In this document: piece after piece, positions 4,291 to 37,181 of the stretch
Position numbering within the stretch: position 1 is the first letter of the stretch
Layout: each line of letters begins with the position of its first letter
DNA from: Thioalkalivibrio thiocyanodenitrificans ARhD 1
Lineage (GTDB): Bacteria; Pseudomonadota; Gammaproteobacteria; Ectothiorhodospirales; Ectothiorhodospiraceae
Reading direction: 5' to 3'
Assembly: GCF_000378965.1 (NCBI RefSeq)
Contig: NZ_KB900536.1
Coordinates: forward strand, 3,287,407 to 3,351,406
DNA length: 64,000 nucleotides
Notes under the pieces: generated by a model
What the model was told of the DNA's origin: nothing
Databases searched by the model: none
The model's input: only the letters and a program-made list of their open reading frames with translations
Program-made: the position numbers and the translations under genes

Positions 4291-4390
4291 AAAGTTCAAG
4301 GTTCAAAGTTCAAGGTTCAAAGGGATGGCTCTACGGCACCCAATGCCATGCAACCGCCCTCCCTTGAACTTTGAACCTTGAACTTTGAAT
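4291..4390. repeat. TTCAARG heptamer inverted repeat inside the transporter operon
   Basis: The left arm (4291-4325) is built of alternating TTCAAAG and TTCAAGG units. The right arm (4360-4390) is the reverse complement of the same pattern, shifted by one unit. The region between the arms is about 34 nt. It lies between the binding-protein stop (4278-4280) and the GTG start of the first permease (4402), inside what should be one transcript. Confidence 0.85.
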
Positions 4391-6984: not shown

Positions 6985-7087
6985 GCGACGCAAAGACGCA
7001 AAGACGCTAAGGGACGCAAAGAATTTGCTTGAACAATCCTTACAACGCCGTTTTGCGAAGCTTTGCGCCTTCGCGCCTTTGCGTCGC
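6985..7087. repeat. ACGCAAAG inverted repeat inside the transporter operon
   Basis: The left arm (6985-7021) carries ACGCAAAG units at 8-10 nt spacing. The right arm (7052-7087) carries the reverse-complement units, with a few mismatches. It fills most of the gap between the second permease (stop 6971-6973) and the ATPase gene (ATG 7114). The unit resembles the inner arms of the repeat at 1306-1342. Confidence 0.85.
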
Positions 7088-8802: not shown

Positions 8803-8880
8803 CCCGGGTGAACGGCGTCCGGTGTGCAAGGCGTGGCACTCGATCGGTGGGGCGTCAAGGTGTCCCGCTACAATCTTGGA

Positions 8881-8996
8881 CGCCTCACGCCTCACGCCTC
8901 ACGCCTCACGCCTCACGCCTCACGCCTCACGCCTCACGCCTCACGCCTCACGCCTCACGCCTCACGCCTCACGCCTCACGCCTCACGCCTCACGCC
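8881..8996. repeat. Perfect tandem array of CGCCTCA, about 16.6 copies
   Basis: Sixteen uninterrupted identical CGCCTCA heptamers plus a partial unit (116 nt), with no spacers. On the minus strand the unit reads TGAGGCG, the same family as the array at 29479-29563, but no inverted partner arm is found here. The array runs into the 3' end of the FHA gene and supplies its last codons and its stop (8983-8985). Because 7 is not a multiple of 3, all three frames stay open, giving meaningless overlapping ORFs of HASRLTP repeats. Confidence 0.97.
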
Positions 8997-9636
8997 TTCC
9001 GCTTCCCGCCTCCTCGAACTCCATGCGAATCCCGGCGATGTCGATGGTGTCCCCGTCTTGCAGAAGCCGGGCCCGACTGCCGATGTGTTCATTGTTGACC
9101 CTGGGCGATGCACCGCTGGCGCCACCGTCCACATGGATGAGCATATAGCCCTGTCCACGTCGCTGGATGGCGGCCACCTGGATGCCCGGACGGCCGAGGG
9201 TGGTGAGCGCCTTGACCAGGTCCAGGGCGCGACCCTTGTTGGGGCCGGTGAGTATGTGCAGTCTCGCGGGTGAGGGTGAGCCGCCACTGCCGGTTCCCAC
9301 GGGCGCTGGTGCATGGTCGACGCTCCGGGTTGCAGGCCGTACGCGGCCGTCCTTGTGCGTATAGACGAGACGGAAATGATGGATGCCGATCTCGTCACCC
9401 TCCCTGAGGGCGCGTTTCCGGATGGGCCGGTCATTTACCAACGTGCCATTGGTACTGCCCAGATCTTCCACGAGGCTGTCGTTGAGCAGCGTGATGATAC
9501 GGGCGTGATGGCCGCTGACGGCGTGGTCGTTCAGGTATACATCGTTGTCCGGGTTGCGGCCGATGGTAATCGCCTCGCGCGTCAGTGGGATGTCGTACAG
9601 GAACTGGCCGTTGAGGTAGACAATGATATGGGCCAT
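8983..9636 (-). CDS. Protein with two FHA domains
   Basis: A 217-residue soluble protein with two forkhead-associated phosphothreonine-binding modules. The first (about residues 20-90) shows TIGRNPDNDVYLND, HARI and the loop LGSTNGTLVND. The second (about 125-210) is more divergent (TLGRPGIQVAAI, DGDTIDIAGIRMEF). It overlaps the upstream phosphatase gene by 4 nt (ATGA), so the two are very likely made together and act on the same phosphosignalling pathway. No Ser/Thr kinase gene is present in the window. The last residues (RREA) and the stop codon come from the CGCCTCA array, so the natural C-terminus may have been reshaped by the repeat. The biological target is unknown. Confidence 0.85.
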   Translation of the reverse strand: MAHIIVYLNGQFLYDIPLTREAITIGRNPDNDVYLNDHAVSGHHARIITLLNDSLVEDLGSTNGTLVNDRPIRKRALREGDEIGIHHFRLVYTHKDGRVRPATRSVDHAPAPVGTGSGGSPSPARLHILTGPNKGRALDLVKALTTLGRPGIQVAAIQRRGQGYMLIHVDGGASGASPRVNNEHIGSRARLLQDGDTIDIAGIRMEFEEAGSGRREA

Positions 9637-13578: not shown

Positions 13579-13690
13579 GCGCAGAGGACACGAAGTGGAA
13601 TCCCGGCCATCACCTGTGCGTCCCTCGGGTATACCCATGCGCCCCATGCGGTTGGCTTCCCATGACCCCCCGCCCCGTCTACGCTTGCCA

Positions 13691-13730
13691 CTGACAACTG
13701 ACAACTGACAACTGACAACTGACAACTGAC
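13691..13730. repeat. CTGACAA tandem heptamer array upstream of dnaQ
   Basis: Five full CTGACAA units plus five further bases, ending 9 nt before the dnaQ ATG. No reverse-complement arm is present. The array occupies the place of the dnaQ ribosome-binding site. Just after rnhA (about 13579-13594) a short CGCAGAGGACACGAAG resembles one arm of the CACAGAGG family, perhaps a remnant. Confidence 0.9.
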
Positions 13731-25636: not shown

Positions 25637-25730
25637 ATTCAAAATTCAAAGTTCAAGATTCAAAGGAGGGACGCGGTGCACCTCAGAAATTGGTTGCCAA
25701 CGGACGCCGCCCCTTTGAATCTTGAATTTT
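25637..25730. repeat. TTCAARR heptamer inverted repeat between rnfH and bamE
   Basis: The left arm (25637-25666) holds four TTCAAAA/TTCAAAG/TTCAAGA/TTCAAAG-type heptamers. The right arm (25712-25730) is the exact reverse complement of the last 2.7 units. It lies between converging genes, with bamE starting its 3' end 4 nt beyond. Confidence 0.85.
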
Positions 25731-26069: not shown

Positions 26070-26161
26070 ATGAGAATGGATATCCTGTGCCCGGAAACGG
26101 GGTGTGAATGGAAAGGCCGGATTGTACACGGAATCCTTCCTGGCCTGAACGGAGGAGTGTC

Positions 26162-26590
26162 TTGGAAAGCCAGAATCTGAAAAAGGCCGGACTGAAGGTG
26201 ACGCTGCCCAGGATGAAGATCCTGGAGCTGCTGGAGCGTTCGGAGGACCGCCACCTGAGCGCGGAGGCCATCTACCGCCAACTGCTTGAGGACGGCGAGG
26301 AAATCGGCCTGGCGACGGTGTACCGGGTGCTTACCCAGTTCGAGGCGGCGGGGCTCGTCAATCGCCATCACTTCGAGGGCAATCAGGCGGTGTTCGAACT
26401 GGAACGCGGCCGCCATCATGACCACATCGTGTGCGTCAATTGCGGCCGCGTGGATGAGTTCATGGACGACATCATCGAGGAACGCCAGAAGGCCATCGCC
26501 GACAAGCTCGGATACACGATCAAGGACCACGCCCTGATCCTGTACGGCGAGTGCAACAAGCCGGATTGCCCGCATCGGCCGAAGGGGTAG
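26162..26590 (+). CDS. fur: Ferric uptake regulator Fur
   Basis: A 142-residue metal-dependent repressor. The N-terminal winged helix is QNLKKAGLKVTLPRMKILELLE and GLATVYRVLTQFEAAGLVNRHHFEG. Metal sites are indicated by HHDHIVCVNCGRVDEF (the HHHD-type region and first CxxC) and a C-terminal CNKPDCPHRPKG (second Cys pair), consistent with a structural zinc. With Fe2+ it represses iron-uptake genes. The start is assigned to TTG 26162, supported by GGAGGAG 4-5 nt upstream and by alignment with other Fur N-termini; ATG 26108 would add 18 unconserved residues. It is divergent from bamE, a standard arrangement. Confidence 0.94.
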   Translation: MESQNLKKAGLKVTLPRMKILELLERSEDRHLSAEAIYRQLLEDGEEIGLATVYRVLTQFEAAGLVNRHHFEGNQAVFELERGRHHDHIVCVNCGRVDEFMDDIIEERQKAIADKLGYTIKDHALILYGECNKPDCPHRPKG

Positions 26591-26594
26591 AGGC

Positions 26595-26707
26595 AATTCA
26601 AGATTCAAGATTCAAGATTCAAGATCCAATGAAGCTGTCGCGGCCGCACGTTCAGCCGGCGGTGTAGGGTGTCACCCCTTTGAATCCTGAACTTTGAATC
26701 TTGAATT
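26595..26707. repeat. TTCAAGA heptamer inverted repeat entering the recN 3' end
   Basis: The left arm (26595-26625) contains four TTCAAGA units. The right arm (about 26679-26707) contains reverse-complement units and lies inside the recN coding sequence, encoding about ten C-terminal residues (NSRFKVQDSK). Same family as 4291-4390 and 25637-25730. Confidence 0.9.
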
Positions 26708-28375
26708 GTCTTTCGCCTTTTCAACCATCTCGCGGGCGTGCGCCACGGTCTGGTCGGTGAGTTCCACGCCGCCCAGCATGCGCGCCACTTCCTGCACGCG
26801 GCTGTCGGCATCCAGCACCTGGATGCGGGTGCGCGTGTCCGCCGTGCCCTTGTGCTTGCTGACCTGGAGGTGGTGGTGAGCCTGGGCCGCCACCTGAGCA
26901 AGATGGGTGACGCACAGCACCTGCCGGTGTTCCCCAAGGGCCCGAAGCTGGCGGCCCACCACCTCGGCCACAGCGCCGCCGATGCCCGCGTCCACCTCGT
27001 CGAAGATGAGGGTGGGGATGGGCAGGGATCGGGCTGCGATCATCTGGATCGCCAGGCTGATACGCGAGAGTTCGCCCCCGGAGGCCACCTTTGAGAGCGG
27101 CTGCAGGGGCTGGCCGGGATTGGCCGTGACCTGGAACTCGATGCGGTCGAGGCCATGGGCGGCGGGGCGCATCTCCGGGTCGGCTTCCACGCTCACCTGG
27201 AACCGGCCGCCCTCCATGCCAAGCCCCTGCATGGCGTCGGTCACCAGTTTTCCGAGCTTCTTCGCTGCTGTGCGCCGGGATCGGGTCAGCGCGGCGGCCG
27301 CCTCCCGGTAACGGGCTTCGGCGGCCCGCGCCTTCTGCGTCAGGGCATCGAGATCCTCATCGTCACTGTCGAGCCGCGCAAGCTCTTCCAGCAGGGTCCG
27401 GGTCAGTTCCGGCAGGGCCTCCGGAGAAACCCGATGCTTGCGGGCGAGATCGTGGATGTCCGACAGGCGCTGCTCCACGAATGCGAGCCTGCCCGGATCC
27501 AGTTCCACCCGGTCCGCGTAATGACGCAGGCTGTCCGCCGCCTCCCTGAGCTGGATCCGGGCGCTGGTGATCAGCTCCAGGGGCTCCTTCAGCGCCGGAT
27601 CGAGCCGCGTGACCTCCTCCAGCCGGTGGTGATACGACCCAAGAAGGGTATCCACGGACTGTTCGTCCGCGTACAGGCCCTGGTGCACCGATGCGGTCAC
27701 TTCCAGCAGGCGCCCCGCGTGGGCGAGCCGCCGCTGTTCCTCGTCCAGGCCCGCCACTTCATCATCACCCAGTTCGAGCGCCTTCAGCTCGCCGGTCTGA
27801 AAGCGGAGAAGATCGCGCCGGGCGGTGCGGGCCTCGTCGTTGTCCGAGGCCTGCGCCAGGCGGTTCTGCAGTTCCCGCCATTCCCGGAAGCATTCCCGTA
27901 CGTCGTCCGGAAGTTTCGGGTGATCCGCAAACTCGTCCAGGATATGCCGCTGCACCTCCCGGCGGGTGAGCGACTGATGGGCGTGCTGGCCGTGGATGTC
28001 CACCAGCAGTTCGCCCAGGGCCTTCATGTTCTGCAGGGTGGTGGGGGTGCCGTTGATCCAGGCACGGCTCCTGCCGTCACTGCCCACCACGCGTCTGAGC
28101 AGGCAGTCATCTCCGGCCTCCAGGGACTGTTCCGCCAGCCATGCCCGGGCGTCCGGGTCGTCCGCCACCTCGAAGCCGACGCTGACCTCCGCGCGTTCCG
28201 CCCCCGTGCGTACCGTGGCACTGTCCGCCCGGTCCCCCAGTACGAGCCCCAGGGCATCCACCAGAATCGACTTGCCGGCCCCCGTCTCGCCCGTGAGCGC
28301 CGTCATGCCGGGACCCAGTTCCAGCCCCAACTCGTCGATGATGGCGAAATCGCGGATGTGGAGGGAGGTAATCAT
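26672..28375 (-). CDS. recN: DNA repair protein RecN
   Basis: A 567-residue SMC-like ATPase for double-strand-break repair. Walker A is GETGAGKS (about residue 29) with the N-terminal MITSLHIRDFAIIDELGLELGPGM. A central coiled coil occupies roughly residues 150-380. The ABC signature is SGGELSRISLAIQM, Walker B is TLIFDEVDAGIGG, and the D-loop/H-loop region is VLCVTHLAQVAAQAHHH. The natural C-terminus AHAREMVEKAKD is followed by about ten residues encoded by the flanking heptamer repeat, before the stop. The start ATG has no strong Shine-Dalgarno. Downstream of nadK on the minus strand. Confidence 0.96.
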   Translation of the reverse strand: MITSLHIRDFAIIDELGLELGPGMTALTGETGAGKSILVDALGLVLGDRADSATVRTGAERAEVSVGFEVADDPDARAWLAEQSLEAGDDCLLRRVVGSDGRSRAWINGTPTTLQNMKALGELLVDIHGQHAHQSLTRREVQRHILDEFADHPKLPDDVRECFREWRELQNRLAQASDNDEARTARRDLLRFQTGELKALELGDDEVAGLDEEQRRLAHAGRLLEVTASVHQGLYADEQSVDTLLGSYHHRLEEVTRLDPALKEPLELITSARIQLREAADSLRHYADRVELDPGRLAFVEQRLSDIHDLARKHRVSPEALPELTRTLLEELARLDSDDEDLDALTQKARAAEARYREAAAALTRSRRTAAKKLGKLVTDAMQGLGMEGGRFQVSVEADPEMRPAAHGLDRIEFQVTANPGQPLQPLSKVASGGELSRISLAIQMIAARSLPIPTLIFDEVDAGIGGAVAEVVGRQLRALGEHRQVLCVTHLAQVAAQAHHHLQVSKHKGTADTRTRIQVLDADSRVQEVARMLGGVELTDQTVAHAREMVEKAKDNSRFKVQDSKG

Positions 28376-28409
28376 CCAGATTGGGGAGTTGGAACCGGGA
28401 AGGGGGGAG

Positions 28410-28543
28410 TGAAGTGGGAAGTGTGAATTGGGAAGTGAGAAGTGAAACCAGCCTCACCCCGAGGTGTCGCCTGAGGGAGAGGGAGGGCAACACCTTTCTC
28501 CCGCTTCCAGGTTCCGACTTCCCAATTCACACTTCCCACTTCA
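28410..28543. repeat. Perfect 27-bp inverted repeat of the GGGAAGT family between nadK and recN
   Basis: Left arm 28410-28436 and right arm 28517-28543 are perfect reverse complements. Internally they are heptamer-like (GGGAAGT GTGAATT GGGAAGT). The intervening 80 nt is unrelated. The right arm ends 2 nt from the nadK stop codon. The outer arms of the repeat at 1271-1368 belong to the same family. It separates two genes that are usually adjacent and here both read on the minus strand. Confidence 0.92.
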
Positions 28544-28544
28544 G

Positions 28545-29429
28545 TCACGGTTGTTCCCCCCACCCCAGCTTCGCCCGCAGGATCTGCAGGTAGTCGTAGC
28601 CCGTGGGGTGAATGAGCCGCAGGCGGGTCTTCTTGCGCCGCACGATCAGGCGGTCACCGGGGCCCAGGGTGGTACTGTTCTGCCCGTCGAAGGCGGCATG
28701 GGCGTGACGGCGGTTGAATTCGCAGACGCGGATCTCCACCTCGCTGTCGCCGTGCACCACCAGGGGTCGGTTGGACAGGCCGTGGGGACAGATGGGTACC
28801 AGTACGAGGGCATCCAGGCTGGGGGCCAGGATGGGACCGCCCCCCGAGAGCGCATAGGCGGTTGAACCCGTGGGGCTGGCCACCACCAGTCCGTCCGCGC
28901 GCTGGGTGTTCACATGGCGGCCGTCGATGCGGGTTTCGAACTCGATCATGCGGACCACGTCATGGATATGCAGCACCACGTCGTTCAGGGACAGGCGTTC
29001 CACGGGTTCGGCGCCGTTGGTGACGACCCGGGTGGCCAGCAGGCTGCGGTGGTCCTCGTCGTACTCGCCGGCCAGGATCTCGTCCAGCCGGCTGATCATC
29101 TCGTGGGGGGAGACGTCCACCAGGAACCCCAGCCGGCCGATGTTGATGCCCATCAGGGGCACCTGGTGATCCACCATCGCCCGTCCGGCGGCCAGGAAGG
29201 TGCCGTCACCGCCGATGACGATGGCCAGATCCGCCTGTTGGCCGAGTGCGTCGAGGTCGACCTGCTCGCAGCCATGGTCGTTCTCCAGCCACCCGCGGGC
29301 GCTGTCATCCAGGAGCACCCGGCAGCCGTGGCCGAGCAGGTGATCGATCAGGGAAACGAGAATATGCACCAGACGCTCGTCACTGCGCTTGGTGATGATG
29401 CCAACGGTCCCGAAGTGTGGTTTGCCCAT
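28545..29429 (-). CDS. nadK: NAD kinase
   Basis: A 294-residue cytosolic enzyme that makes NADP+ from NAD+ and ATP. Motifs: VGIITKRSDER at the N-terminus, IVIGGDGTFLAAGR (the GGDGT catalytic motif with Asp), GINIGRLGFLVDV, and the glycine-rich substrate site VASPTGSTAYALSGGGPIL. Length and order are normal. A GATAAT hexamer ends exactly 8 nt before the ATG and no Shine-Dalgarno is apparent, suggesting a leaderless mRNA. It is divergent from hrcA; the gap holds a TGAGGCG inverted repeat and the CIRCE element. Confidence 0.97.
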   Translation of the reverse strand: MGKPHFGTVGIITKRSDERLVHILVSLIDHLLGHGCRVLLDDSARGWLENDHGCEQVDLDALGQQADLAIVIGGDGTFLAAGRAMVDHQVPLMGINIGRLGFLVDVSPHEMISRLDEILAGEYDEDHRSLLATRVVTNGAEPVERLSLNDVVLHIHDVVRMIEFETRIDGRHVNTQRADGLVVASPTGSTAYALSGGGPILAPSLDALVLVPICPHGLSNRPLVVHGDSEVEIRVCEFNRRHAHAAFDGQNSTTLGPGDRLIVRRKKTRLRLIHPTGYDYLQILRAKLGWGEQP

Positions 29430-29467: not shown

Positions 29468-29478
29468 TGTTGCGAGCG

Positions 29479-29563
29479 TGAGGCGTGAGGCGTGAGGCGT
29501 GAGGCGTGAGGGGTGAGGGGTGAGGGGGTACGCCCCCGCTCACGCCTCACCCCTCACCCCTAA
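29479..29563. repeat. TGAGGCG/TGAGGGG heptamer inverted repeat at the nadK-hrcA junction
   Basis: Seven consecutive heptamers (four TGAGGCG then three TGAGGGG, 29479-29527) form the left arm. The right arm (29539-29563) is about three reverse-complement units. It lies between divergently transcribed genes, 10 nt before the hrcA -35 region. The unit is the complement of the CGCCTCA array at 8881-8996. Confidence 0.92.
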
Positions 29564-33533: not shown

Positions 33534-33632
33534 AACGCAGAGGTCGCAGAGGCGCGGAGGCCGCAGAGGTTTTTCTTGATCATGAAAACCTTTCTCTGCG
33601 CCCTCTGCGTTTCCTTTGCGCCCTCTGCGTTC
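33534..33632. repeat. CGCAGAGG inverted repeat between dnaK and dnaJ
   Basis: The left arm (33534-33575) contains about four CGCAGAGG-type units at 8-9 nt spacing. The right arm (33585-33632) contains their reverse complements with small changes. The hairpin apex is only about 10 nt wide and T-rich. It lies in the middle of a chaperone operon. Confidence 0.88.
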
Positions 33633-34834: not shown

Positions 34835-34836
34835 AG

Positions 34837-34894
34837 AGGCAAGATACAAGAGGCAAGATACAAGTCACTTCGGTTTTTCTTGTATCTTGTATCT
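34837..34894. repeat. AGGCAAG-ATACAAG inverted repeat between dnaJ and dapB
   Basis: The left arm (34837-34864) is two copies of a 14-nt unit, equivalent to four 7-mers. The right arm (34879-34894) is the reverse complement of the ATACAAG-type part (CTTGTATCTTGTATCT). Apex about 14 nt, T-rich. Confidence 0.88.
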
Positions 34895-35963: not shown

Positions 35964-37091
35964 TTGAGTTCCACACCCGCTTTGCTGGCACTGGAAGACG
36001 GCAGTCTGTTCCGTGGCGTTTCCTTTGGCGCCCCGGGCCGGACCGTCGGCGAGGTGGTGTTCAATACCGCCATGACCGGCTACCAGGAGATACTGACGGA
36101 CCCGTCCTACGCCCGTCAGATTGTCACCCTGACCTACCCCCACATCGGCAACACCGGAGTGAATCCGGAGGACGAGGAGTCCGGCGCAGTGCATGCGGCG
36201 GGGCTTGTGATCCGGGATCTGCCGCCACTGGTGAGCAACTGGCGCAGCCGGGAGGCCCTGCCCGATTACCTGGGTCGCCATGGCGTGGTGGCCATCGCCG
36301 GGATCGACACCCGGCGCCTGACGCGGATCCTGCGGGAGAAGGGCGCTCAGAACGGGTGCATCATGGCCGGTGATCCCGACGAGAACGCGGCGCTTGAGGC
36401 GGCGCGAGGCTTCCCGGGTCTCAAGGGCATGGATCTGGCGAAGGAGGTCTCGGCGGCGGAAGCGTATGACTGGAACGAGGGCACCTGGCGGCTGGAAGGC
36501 GGCCATGCGCCGGCACCCGGAAAGGCGCCCTATCGGGTGGTGGCCTACGACTTCGGCATGAAGCGCAATATCCTGCGCATGCTGGTGGACCGTGGCTGCC
36601 GGATCACCGTCGTGCCCGCGCAGACGCCGGCGAAGACGGTCCTTGAGATGAAGCCCGACGGGGTATTCCTGTCAAACGGCCCCGGTGACCCGGAGCCCTG
36701 TGACTACGCCATCTCCGCCATTGGCGAGATCGTCGACGCGGGCGTGCCCACCTATGGTATCTGCCTGGGTCATCAGCTGCTGGGTCTGGCCAGTGGCGCA
36801 CGCACGGTCAAGATGAAGTTCGGTCATCACGGTGCCAACCATCCCGTTCAGGATCTGGAGACGAAGCGGGTGATGATCTCCAGTCAGAACCACGGGTTCG
36901 CCGTGGACGAGGACACCCTGCCGGACAATCTGAAGGCGACGCACCGCTCCCTTTTCGACGGGACCCTGCAGGGCATCGCCCGCACCGACCGCCCGGCCTT
37001 CAGCTTCCAGGGCCACCCCGAGGCGAGCCCCGGGCCCCACGACGTTGCGCCGCTGTTCGACCGTTTCGTTGAATTGATGGAAAACCGTTAA
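35964..37091 (+). CDS. carA: Carbamoyl-phosphate synthase small (glutaminase) subunit
   Basis: A 375-residue subunit that hydrolyses glutamine and passes ammonia to CarB. The N-terminal domain begins [18 protein letters not shown]. The class I amidotransferase has the catalytic Cys in [15 protein letters not shown] and the His-Glu pair in [17 protein letters not shown] 35964 with GGAGG 8 nt upstream gives the usual N-terminus; the frame is also open back to ATG 35826 but that extension is not conserved. A CACAGAG inverted repeat, beginning directly after the stop, separates it from carB. Confidence 0.97.
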
Positions 37092-37165
37092 GCCACAGAG
37101 GACACAGAGTTCACAGAGCAAGAGCAGAGATCTTTCACCTCTGTGACCTCTGTGAACTCTGTGGC
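37092..37165. repeat. CACAGAG inverted repeat between carA and carB
   Basis: Left arm 37092-37118 starts at the base after the carA stop and has three CACAGAG units at 9-nt spacing. The right arm 37139-37165 carries the reverse complement with the middle dinucleotides swapped (GGA/TTC order changed). Apex 20 nt. It separates two subunits that must be made together. Confidence 0.92.
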
Positions 37166-37181
37166 TAAGCGACTACAACAC

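Follow-up and report, generated by a model that had tools for sequence, protein, structure and literature searches.

An inverted heptamer array supplies the last codons of recN in Thioalkalivibrio thiocyanodenitrificans and is probably one copy of a REPIN-like element dispersed by a four-helix protein

How does an array of 7-bp repeats come to supply the last codons of recN, and does the array belong to this one gene or to something that moves? We addressed this in a window of 64,000 nucleotides (the whole stretch of DNA that was analysed) from Thioalkalivibrio thiocyanodenitrificans ARhD 1, in which a heptamer inverted repeat is placed between, and partly inside, the convergent genes fur and recN (Table 1). 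The genus genomes used for comparison are the source genome and four others (G001-G004); we take this five-genome genus to be Thioalkalivibrio.

The array at the end of recN

The final codons of recN read GAC AAT TCA AGA TTC AAA GTT CAG GAT TCA AAG GGG TGA. The last eleven residues of the protein, NSRFKVQDSKG, are thus a reading of the right arm of the repeat, entered after ...EKAKD, and the stop codon lies in the spacer. A preliminary description of this DNA had placed the right arm in frame within recN, encoding the C-terminus ahead of the stop, and the sequence, the open reading frame and the codons all confirm it. Read inward, the TTCAAGA array is free of stops in every frame, while its complement has a TGA in every frame. 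Because the inward strand is open in all frames, recN runs through the arm and terminates in the spacer. In the convergent gene, the match to Fur begins only at residue 21 of the listed open reading frame, and the true fur start may lie further inside it.

Table 1. Coordinates of genes, element parts and further inverted-array elements in the window
Feature	Position	Strand	Remarks
recN	26672..28375	minus	567 aa; NCBIfam recN equivalog (NF008121, TIGR00634)
fur	26108..26590	plus	convergent with recN; ORF coordinates as listed
Left (fur-side) arm	26595..26629	+	tandem ATTCAAG heptamers, 4-5 copies
Spacer (loop) of fur/recN element	26630..26677	none	~48 bp; holds recN stop codon
Right (recN-side) arm	26678..26707	-	inverted TTCAARN heptamers; in-frame end of RecN
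Codons of RecN tail NSRFKVQDSKG	26675..26707	-	stop TGA 26672-26674
TTCAARN element	4291..4389	none	orthologous G004 site likewise TTCAA
TTCAARN element	25637..25730	none	G001 TTCAA, spacer inverted; G002 8/9-mer CGCAGAGG; G003/G004 CAAG-type
Heptamer element, GAAGTGG type	28407..28546	none	upstream of recN
Heptamer element, GCGTGAG type	29476..29561	none	G003/G004 same site: CAAG type
Heptamer element, CAAGATA/AGAGGCA type	34835..34894	none	
8/9-mer-class element CGCAAAGA	6985..7087	none	
8/9-mer-class element CGCAGAGG	33534..33629	none	
8/9-mer-class element CACAGAGGA	37091..37166	none	G003/G004 same site: GxxExxY gene between inverted repeats

The arms form an imperfect inverted repeat of 41 nt with 80% complementarity and 57 nt between them. 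Both RNA strands of the element are predicted to fold into highly stable hairpins (-60.3 and -56.0 kcal/mol), with folding z scores of -6.0 and -6.7 against dinucleotide shuffles. In G004 the flanks outside the arms, AAGGCGTAAAGACA and TGTCTTTCGCCTT (equivalent to window positions 26581-26594 and 26708-26720), are themselves complementary, so the element may sit within an older shared stem-loop, which may in that case encode the EKAKD of RecN and hold the fur stop codon.

RecN was gathered from 77 relatives and the C-termini were compared for 30, five from the genus and 25 from outside it. All five genus genomes have a 17-residue tail after HAREM together with an inverted TTCAARN array at fur/recN (VEKAKDNSRFKVQDSKG, VEKANGDSRFKVQDSKG, VEKAKDNSRFNIQGSKG, found twice, and VEKVKDNSRFNVQDSKG). 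In the 25 proteins from outside the genus the tail after HAREM is 5-25 residues long (median 7), and none of the 25, same-family genomes among them, contains an SRF, FKVQ or QDSK motif; in G016 and G022 the syntenic gap between fur and recN is free of arrays. As tail and array are found together in all five genus genomes and the motif in none of the 25 other proteins, the tail is array-derived and predates the radiation of these genomes. The recN-side arm has a constant length and stop position in 5/5 genus genomes, whereas 4 to 7 units are found in the fur-side arm, a difference which suggests, short of proof, that the coding arm is under constraint.

These comparisons bear out the expectation of the preliminary description that orthologues free of the repeat end near EMVEKAK, and no NSRFKVQDS tail conserved in repeat-free genomes was found among the 25 proteins. 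The insertion is genus-wide and old, so a simple recent growth of the array in this strain is not supported. That the array 'replaced' a natural C-terminus is too strong, since natural RecN C-termini range from 5 to 25 residues, and the array displaced no more than a few of these. We infer that RecN tolerates the array-encoded tail.

A dispersed and polarised family of inverted arrays

The repeat does not stand alone: it is one of many copies of an inverted-array element that is dispersed, polarised and tied to PF05635 genes. The window contains 11 copies of TTCAAGA where 3.3 are expected, a count reached in 0/100 shuffles, and the 17-mer TTCAAGATTCAAGATTC has 24 occurrences in the genome compared with 0 for its reversed-letter control. 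About nine inverted short-unit arrays are present in the window, built from the units TTCAARN, GAAGTGG, GCGTGAG, CAAGAGG, CGCAAAGA, CGCAGAGG and CACAGAGGA. In 404 kb of the source genome we counted 32 paired elements versus 5 in block-shuffled DNA, a rough density given that stretches were sampled and some were picked for TTCAAGA matches. Polarity is absolute: for six unit families, surveyed in DNA from four genomes, 105 pairs are arranged as U...rc(U) and 0 are reversed. Two unpaired arrays also lie in the window, one of 19 copies of ACGCCTC at 8880-9013, where G004 has a GAAGTG-type element, and one of about 6 copies of ACTGACA at 13690-13730.

The TTCAA family is abundant throughout the genus. 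TTCAARDx3 has 208-404 matches per genome in its five members and no match in 23 genomes from other genera of the family or in 17 further relatives; contigs of T. denitrificans and T. sulfidiphilus bear the same arrays. In a scan of one genome per species, the inverted TTCAARD pair was also found in Acidobacteria, Chloroflexi, Planctomycetes, Bacteroidales, Cyanobacteria, Nitrospirae, Omnitrophota, Patescibacteria and others. The TTCAARD unit thereby recurs across very long evolutionary distances (loci L079-L197, many phyla).

Most of 84 elements classified by gap type lie between genes, with 46 in co-directional, 17 in convergent and 11 in divergent gaps. Heptamer elements were close to stop codons in 24/29 cases, where uniform placement predicts 18.5, and for loci in other phyla the corresponding figures were 20 and 21.2. 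Strict stop-codon targeting was considered and left as a suggestion, since little room remains in the gaps and most of the signal is accounted for by uniform placement. Hairpin-loop targeting as a general insertion rule was also rejected, outer-flank complementarity being 5.15 versus 4.90 for mispaired flanks; the recN/fur site is the strongest outlier in this measure among 7-mer elements.

Genes within the arrays and turnover at orthologous sites

At window site 37094 the source genome has a non-coding CACAGAGG element where G003 and G004 (loci L199 and L203) hold a 475-bp insert, in which a GxxExxY gene lies between CGCAAATAAACGCGAATGGACGCAAA inverted repeats. This insert prompted searches for the nuclease-like GxxExxY protein (TIGR04256) and for the four-helix (4HB) 23S intervening-sequence protein (TIGR02436/PF05635). 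Each genus genome has 2-5 matches to GxxExxY and 3-6 to the four-helix protein, some of them partial, and the three relatives from outside the genus that were searched have 0 of either. Nearly all such genes in the genus are located within inverted arrays, made of 7-mers around four-helix genes and of 8/9-mers around GxxExxY genes. In 5/5 genus genomes a four-helix gene flanked by TTCAA arrays lies at the same site, between sucC and sucD, both of which were identified by translating the flanking DNA. The source-genome copy encodes PF05635 only (E 2.1e-30); no transposase domain was found in this coding element, which has neither the Y1 transposase of a RAYT nor the features of an autonomous parent of a MITE. 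The four-helix protein has a solved relative, XCC0516 of Xanthomonas campestris (PDB 2GSC), and PF05635 is not known to have a catalytic activity.

The association was then assessed in 203 genomes spread over the Gammaproteobacteria, with an inverted-repeat score of at least 15 as the threshold (off-target control: median 10.2, 95th percentile 13.6, 99th 16.1). Such a repeat surrounds 28/29 four-helix loci, and all 28, whose units are very diverse, show a period of 7 in one arm or both. For GxxExxY, 23/28 loci have the repeat; the period is 8-10 in 22 of these and 7 in none. Of 30 four-helix loci in other phyla, 22 combine repeat and period, compared with 16 of 1500 control intervals, and the other 8 do not. 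When genomes were chosen solely for inverted TTCAARD arrays, 47/50 encoded a four-helix protein against 38/203 in the class sample, a result that is discounted for Bacteroidota because their background is high (61/80). Inside the class sample the association between TTCAA arrays and four-helix genes is weak (4/8 vs 34/195), and several array-bearing genomes, G068, G195 and G204 for example, have no detected four-helix gene. Genome-level co-occurrence with a single unit is weakly informative because genomes use different units.

We also compared proteins and units directly. Across 57 loci, the similarity of four-helix proteins between genomes correlates with the similarity of their flanking heptamers (Mantel r 0.27; permutation sd 0.037, with 0/2000 reaching the observed value). 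The correlation persists when GC is controlled (0.25), close protein pairs are removed (0.19) or unit base composition is controlled (0.20), with 0/1000 permutations reaching it in each case. Co-variation of this kind is expected from unit-specific recognition, although part of it could stem from vertical co-inheritance.

Turnover is faithful to both site and class. G003 and G004 are about 95% identical over about 300 kb and have most element sites in common. The unit family differs at 12 of these sites (motif matching defined the families, and the sites were tallied by hand in a table), and 12/12 differences stay within class (5 heptamer to heptamer, 7 8/9-mer to 8/9-mer). At about 7/20 heptamer sites where the unit family is unchanged and the spacer can be read, the two genomes have it in opposite orientations, and an inversion also separates the source genome from G001 at 25637. 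One clean empty/filled pair was found, for an 8/9-mer element, with CTTC on both sides of the insertion. No insertion of a 7-mer element with clean ends was captured, so no target-site duplication is known for the 7-mer class. Elements can be nested, as seen for a ACAGGATT 9-mer element within the loop of a CGCGGAG element (stretches P3 22483 and P1 43048 of G003 and G004). The syntenic stretches of G003 and G004 also contain other palindromic insertions unrelated to the arrays, among them one family bounded by CTAGCCCGCATATCTCACC and GGTGAGATATGCGGGCTA and, in G004, a 238-bp element that interrupts the loop of a GTGTCGTGTCCC hairpin.

A proposed mechanism, its alternatives and its relatives

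The last codons of recN are probably occupied by a REPIN-like element that is dispersed in trans by a four-helix protein matched to its heptamer. The small non-coding element consists of two inverted TTCAARN tandem arrays and a spacer of about 50 bp, with one arm read as the RecN tail, and the coding member of the family has a PF05635/TIGR02436 gene between the same arrays, of which one TTCAA copy was seen per genus genome. We infer that the four-helix protein does the moving: it would recognise its own heptamer as nucleic acid and cause copying, insertion or rewriting, dispersing or re-writing the non-coding copies in trans as has been proposed for RAYTs and REPINs. Before the radiation of the genus, one copy would have inserted where fur and recN converge, and recN would then have run through the stop-free arm and ended in the spacer. 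A speculative idea is telomerase-like addition at break ends, which would give the observed polarity.

Simple-sequence expansion would need no mobile element or protein, as slippage during replication could have extended a heptamer array close to the recN end, with the opposite arm then copied from a hairpin template. The variation in unit number between species (4 to 7 in the fur-side arm) is as predicted by slippage; correction between arms could also account for their likeness, and template switching for inverted spacers. We nevertheless find slippage very doubtful, in view of hundreds of same-unit arrays in one genus with none in 40 relatives, a single polarity (105:0), arrays which enclose particular gene families with a strict period, a unit which co-varies with the protein, and an exchange of unit families solely within class at fixed sites. 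Arrays might otherwise be host sites, acting as bidirectional terminators or mRNA-stabilising hairpins, in or beside which selfish PF05635 genes insert without dispersing them. The very stable hairpins predicted on both RNA strands, the proximity to stop codons, the existence of nested elements and the position of the fur/recN copy between convergent genes, with complementary outer flanks in G004, are all consistent with host sites. This is an unlikely explanation given that both arms lie immediately around each four-helix gene in almost every genome and that elements also occur in divergent (11) and co-directional (46) gaps among the 84; nor does it require the co-variation of unit and protein across genomes.

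The tail of RecN could also be an old, conserved and functional C-terminus whose similarity to the array is secondary, for which its constant length and stop position beside a variable other arm might speak. This is scarcely credible, as the motif is untraceable in 25 other RecN, same-family ones included, and the tail is a literal reading of heptamers present hundreds of times elsewhere in the genome. We are more hesitant over a reading in which the elements are non-autonomous and are moved by another enzyme, for example a RAYT or an unlinked transposase, while PF05635 is carried along or assists. No enzyme activity is known for PF05635, its homologue Avd is an accessory of reverse transcriptase (PMC10053308), and Thioalkalivibrio HL-EbGR7 has RAYTs (PMC3116915). 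The coding element holds the four-helix gene alone, however, and period and unit track the four-helix protein in many lineages, which makes the involvement of another enzyme rather improbable, though PF05635 may still have an accessory role.

The proposed dispersal by the four-helix protein has its nearest parallel in REPIN/RAYT systems, where one gene copy stands beside many dispersed elements (PMC3116915). The likeness extends to small, dispersed, intergenic elements of two inverted repeat units (105:0 here), to a single-copy gene per family that adjoins members (PMC3116915), and to an apparent co-evolution of protein and repeat. The sucC-sucD TTCAA family, with one inherited coding copy and many non-coding ones, reproduces the RAYT/REPIN arrangement (PMC3116915). 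In contrast to REPINs, the arms are tandem 7-bp arrays rather than palindromic REPs, and the linked protein is a PF05635 four-helix bundle rather than a Y1 tyrosine transposase. A different likeness is offered by Rickettsia palindromic elements, which are defined palindromes inserted inside open reading frames. Here too a repeat gives in-frame codons to a host protein, as in the tail of RecN, but it is the arm of a tandem array that forms a C-terminal tail.

The 23S rRNA intervening sequences (IVSs) share the protein family, which has been described as resembling Avd of diversity-generating retroelements (PMC10053308), as well as terminal inverted repeats that form a long stem (PMC4990558). 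A PF05635 reading frame between inverted repeats is likewise present in the sucC-sucD coding copy. The Coxiella 23S IVS contains tandem heptamers (GACAGAT) of strain-variable copy number beside its S23p/PF05635 reading frame (PMC4990558), which fits the period-7 rule. The elements described here differ in that they lie between protein genes, are mostly free of reading frames and occur in many copies; the fur/recN copy itself contains no PF05635 reading frame and is not in an rRNA gene. IVSs are cut out of their transcript by RNase III; for the fur/recN copy the corresponding observation is the stable hairpin predicted from its sequence.

Dispersed tandem 7-mers in intergenic DNA, as in the heptameric SSR/STRR class, are found here and have been described several times. 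In the accessible parts of the respective papers, Xanthomonas GGGAATC forms 70-75 convergent inverted pairs, with arrays near or overlapping stop codons as for the heptamer elements here, Nostoc has GGGGA(C/T)T heptamers (PMC4692102), and Beggiatoaceae have TAACTGA heptamers with no evident transfer mechanism (PMC4679880). Those parts link the arrays to no gene, whereas here a protein family and a period of 7 are tied to them; the accessible part of the IVS paper reports heptamers without dispersed non-coding copies (PMC4990558). A paper joining dispersed heptamers with an IVS-type gene was not found in the open literature, subscription journals being outside the scope and priority accordingly uncertain, and in the accessible parts of open papers mentioning GxxExxY we found no link to repeats. 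The family is very widespread and apparently unrecognised.

More tentatively, and with nearly as much to be said for it as against it, there may be two parallel and previously unrecognised classes of mobile element with tandem-array ends, heptamer/PF05635 and 8-10-mer/GxxExxY. Each protein would read its own unit and replacement would stay within class at persistent sites, and the 23S IVSs and the Xanthomonas, Nostoc and Beggiatoaceae heptamers would be included. This offers a possible explanation for dispersed heptamer repeats in several phyla, which have so far been described without a mechanism, and ties them to PF05635, a family of unassigned function that also occurs in split 23S rRNAs and shares homology with Avd, a retroelement factor. 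PF05635 and GxxExxY would gain a candidate role, unit-specific nucleic-acid recognition, together with a simple diagnostic (period 7 versus 8-10), and the RecN tail shows array arms to be a source of new C-terminal tails. A survey of CRISPR association lists the 23S rRNA IVP among associated proteins (PMC10910872); we speculate that heptamer arrays near 23S rRNA IVP genes, mistaken for CRISPR arrays, could explain this entry.
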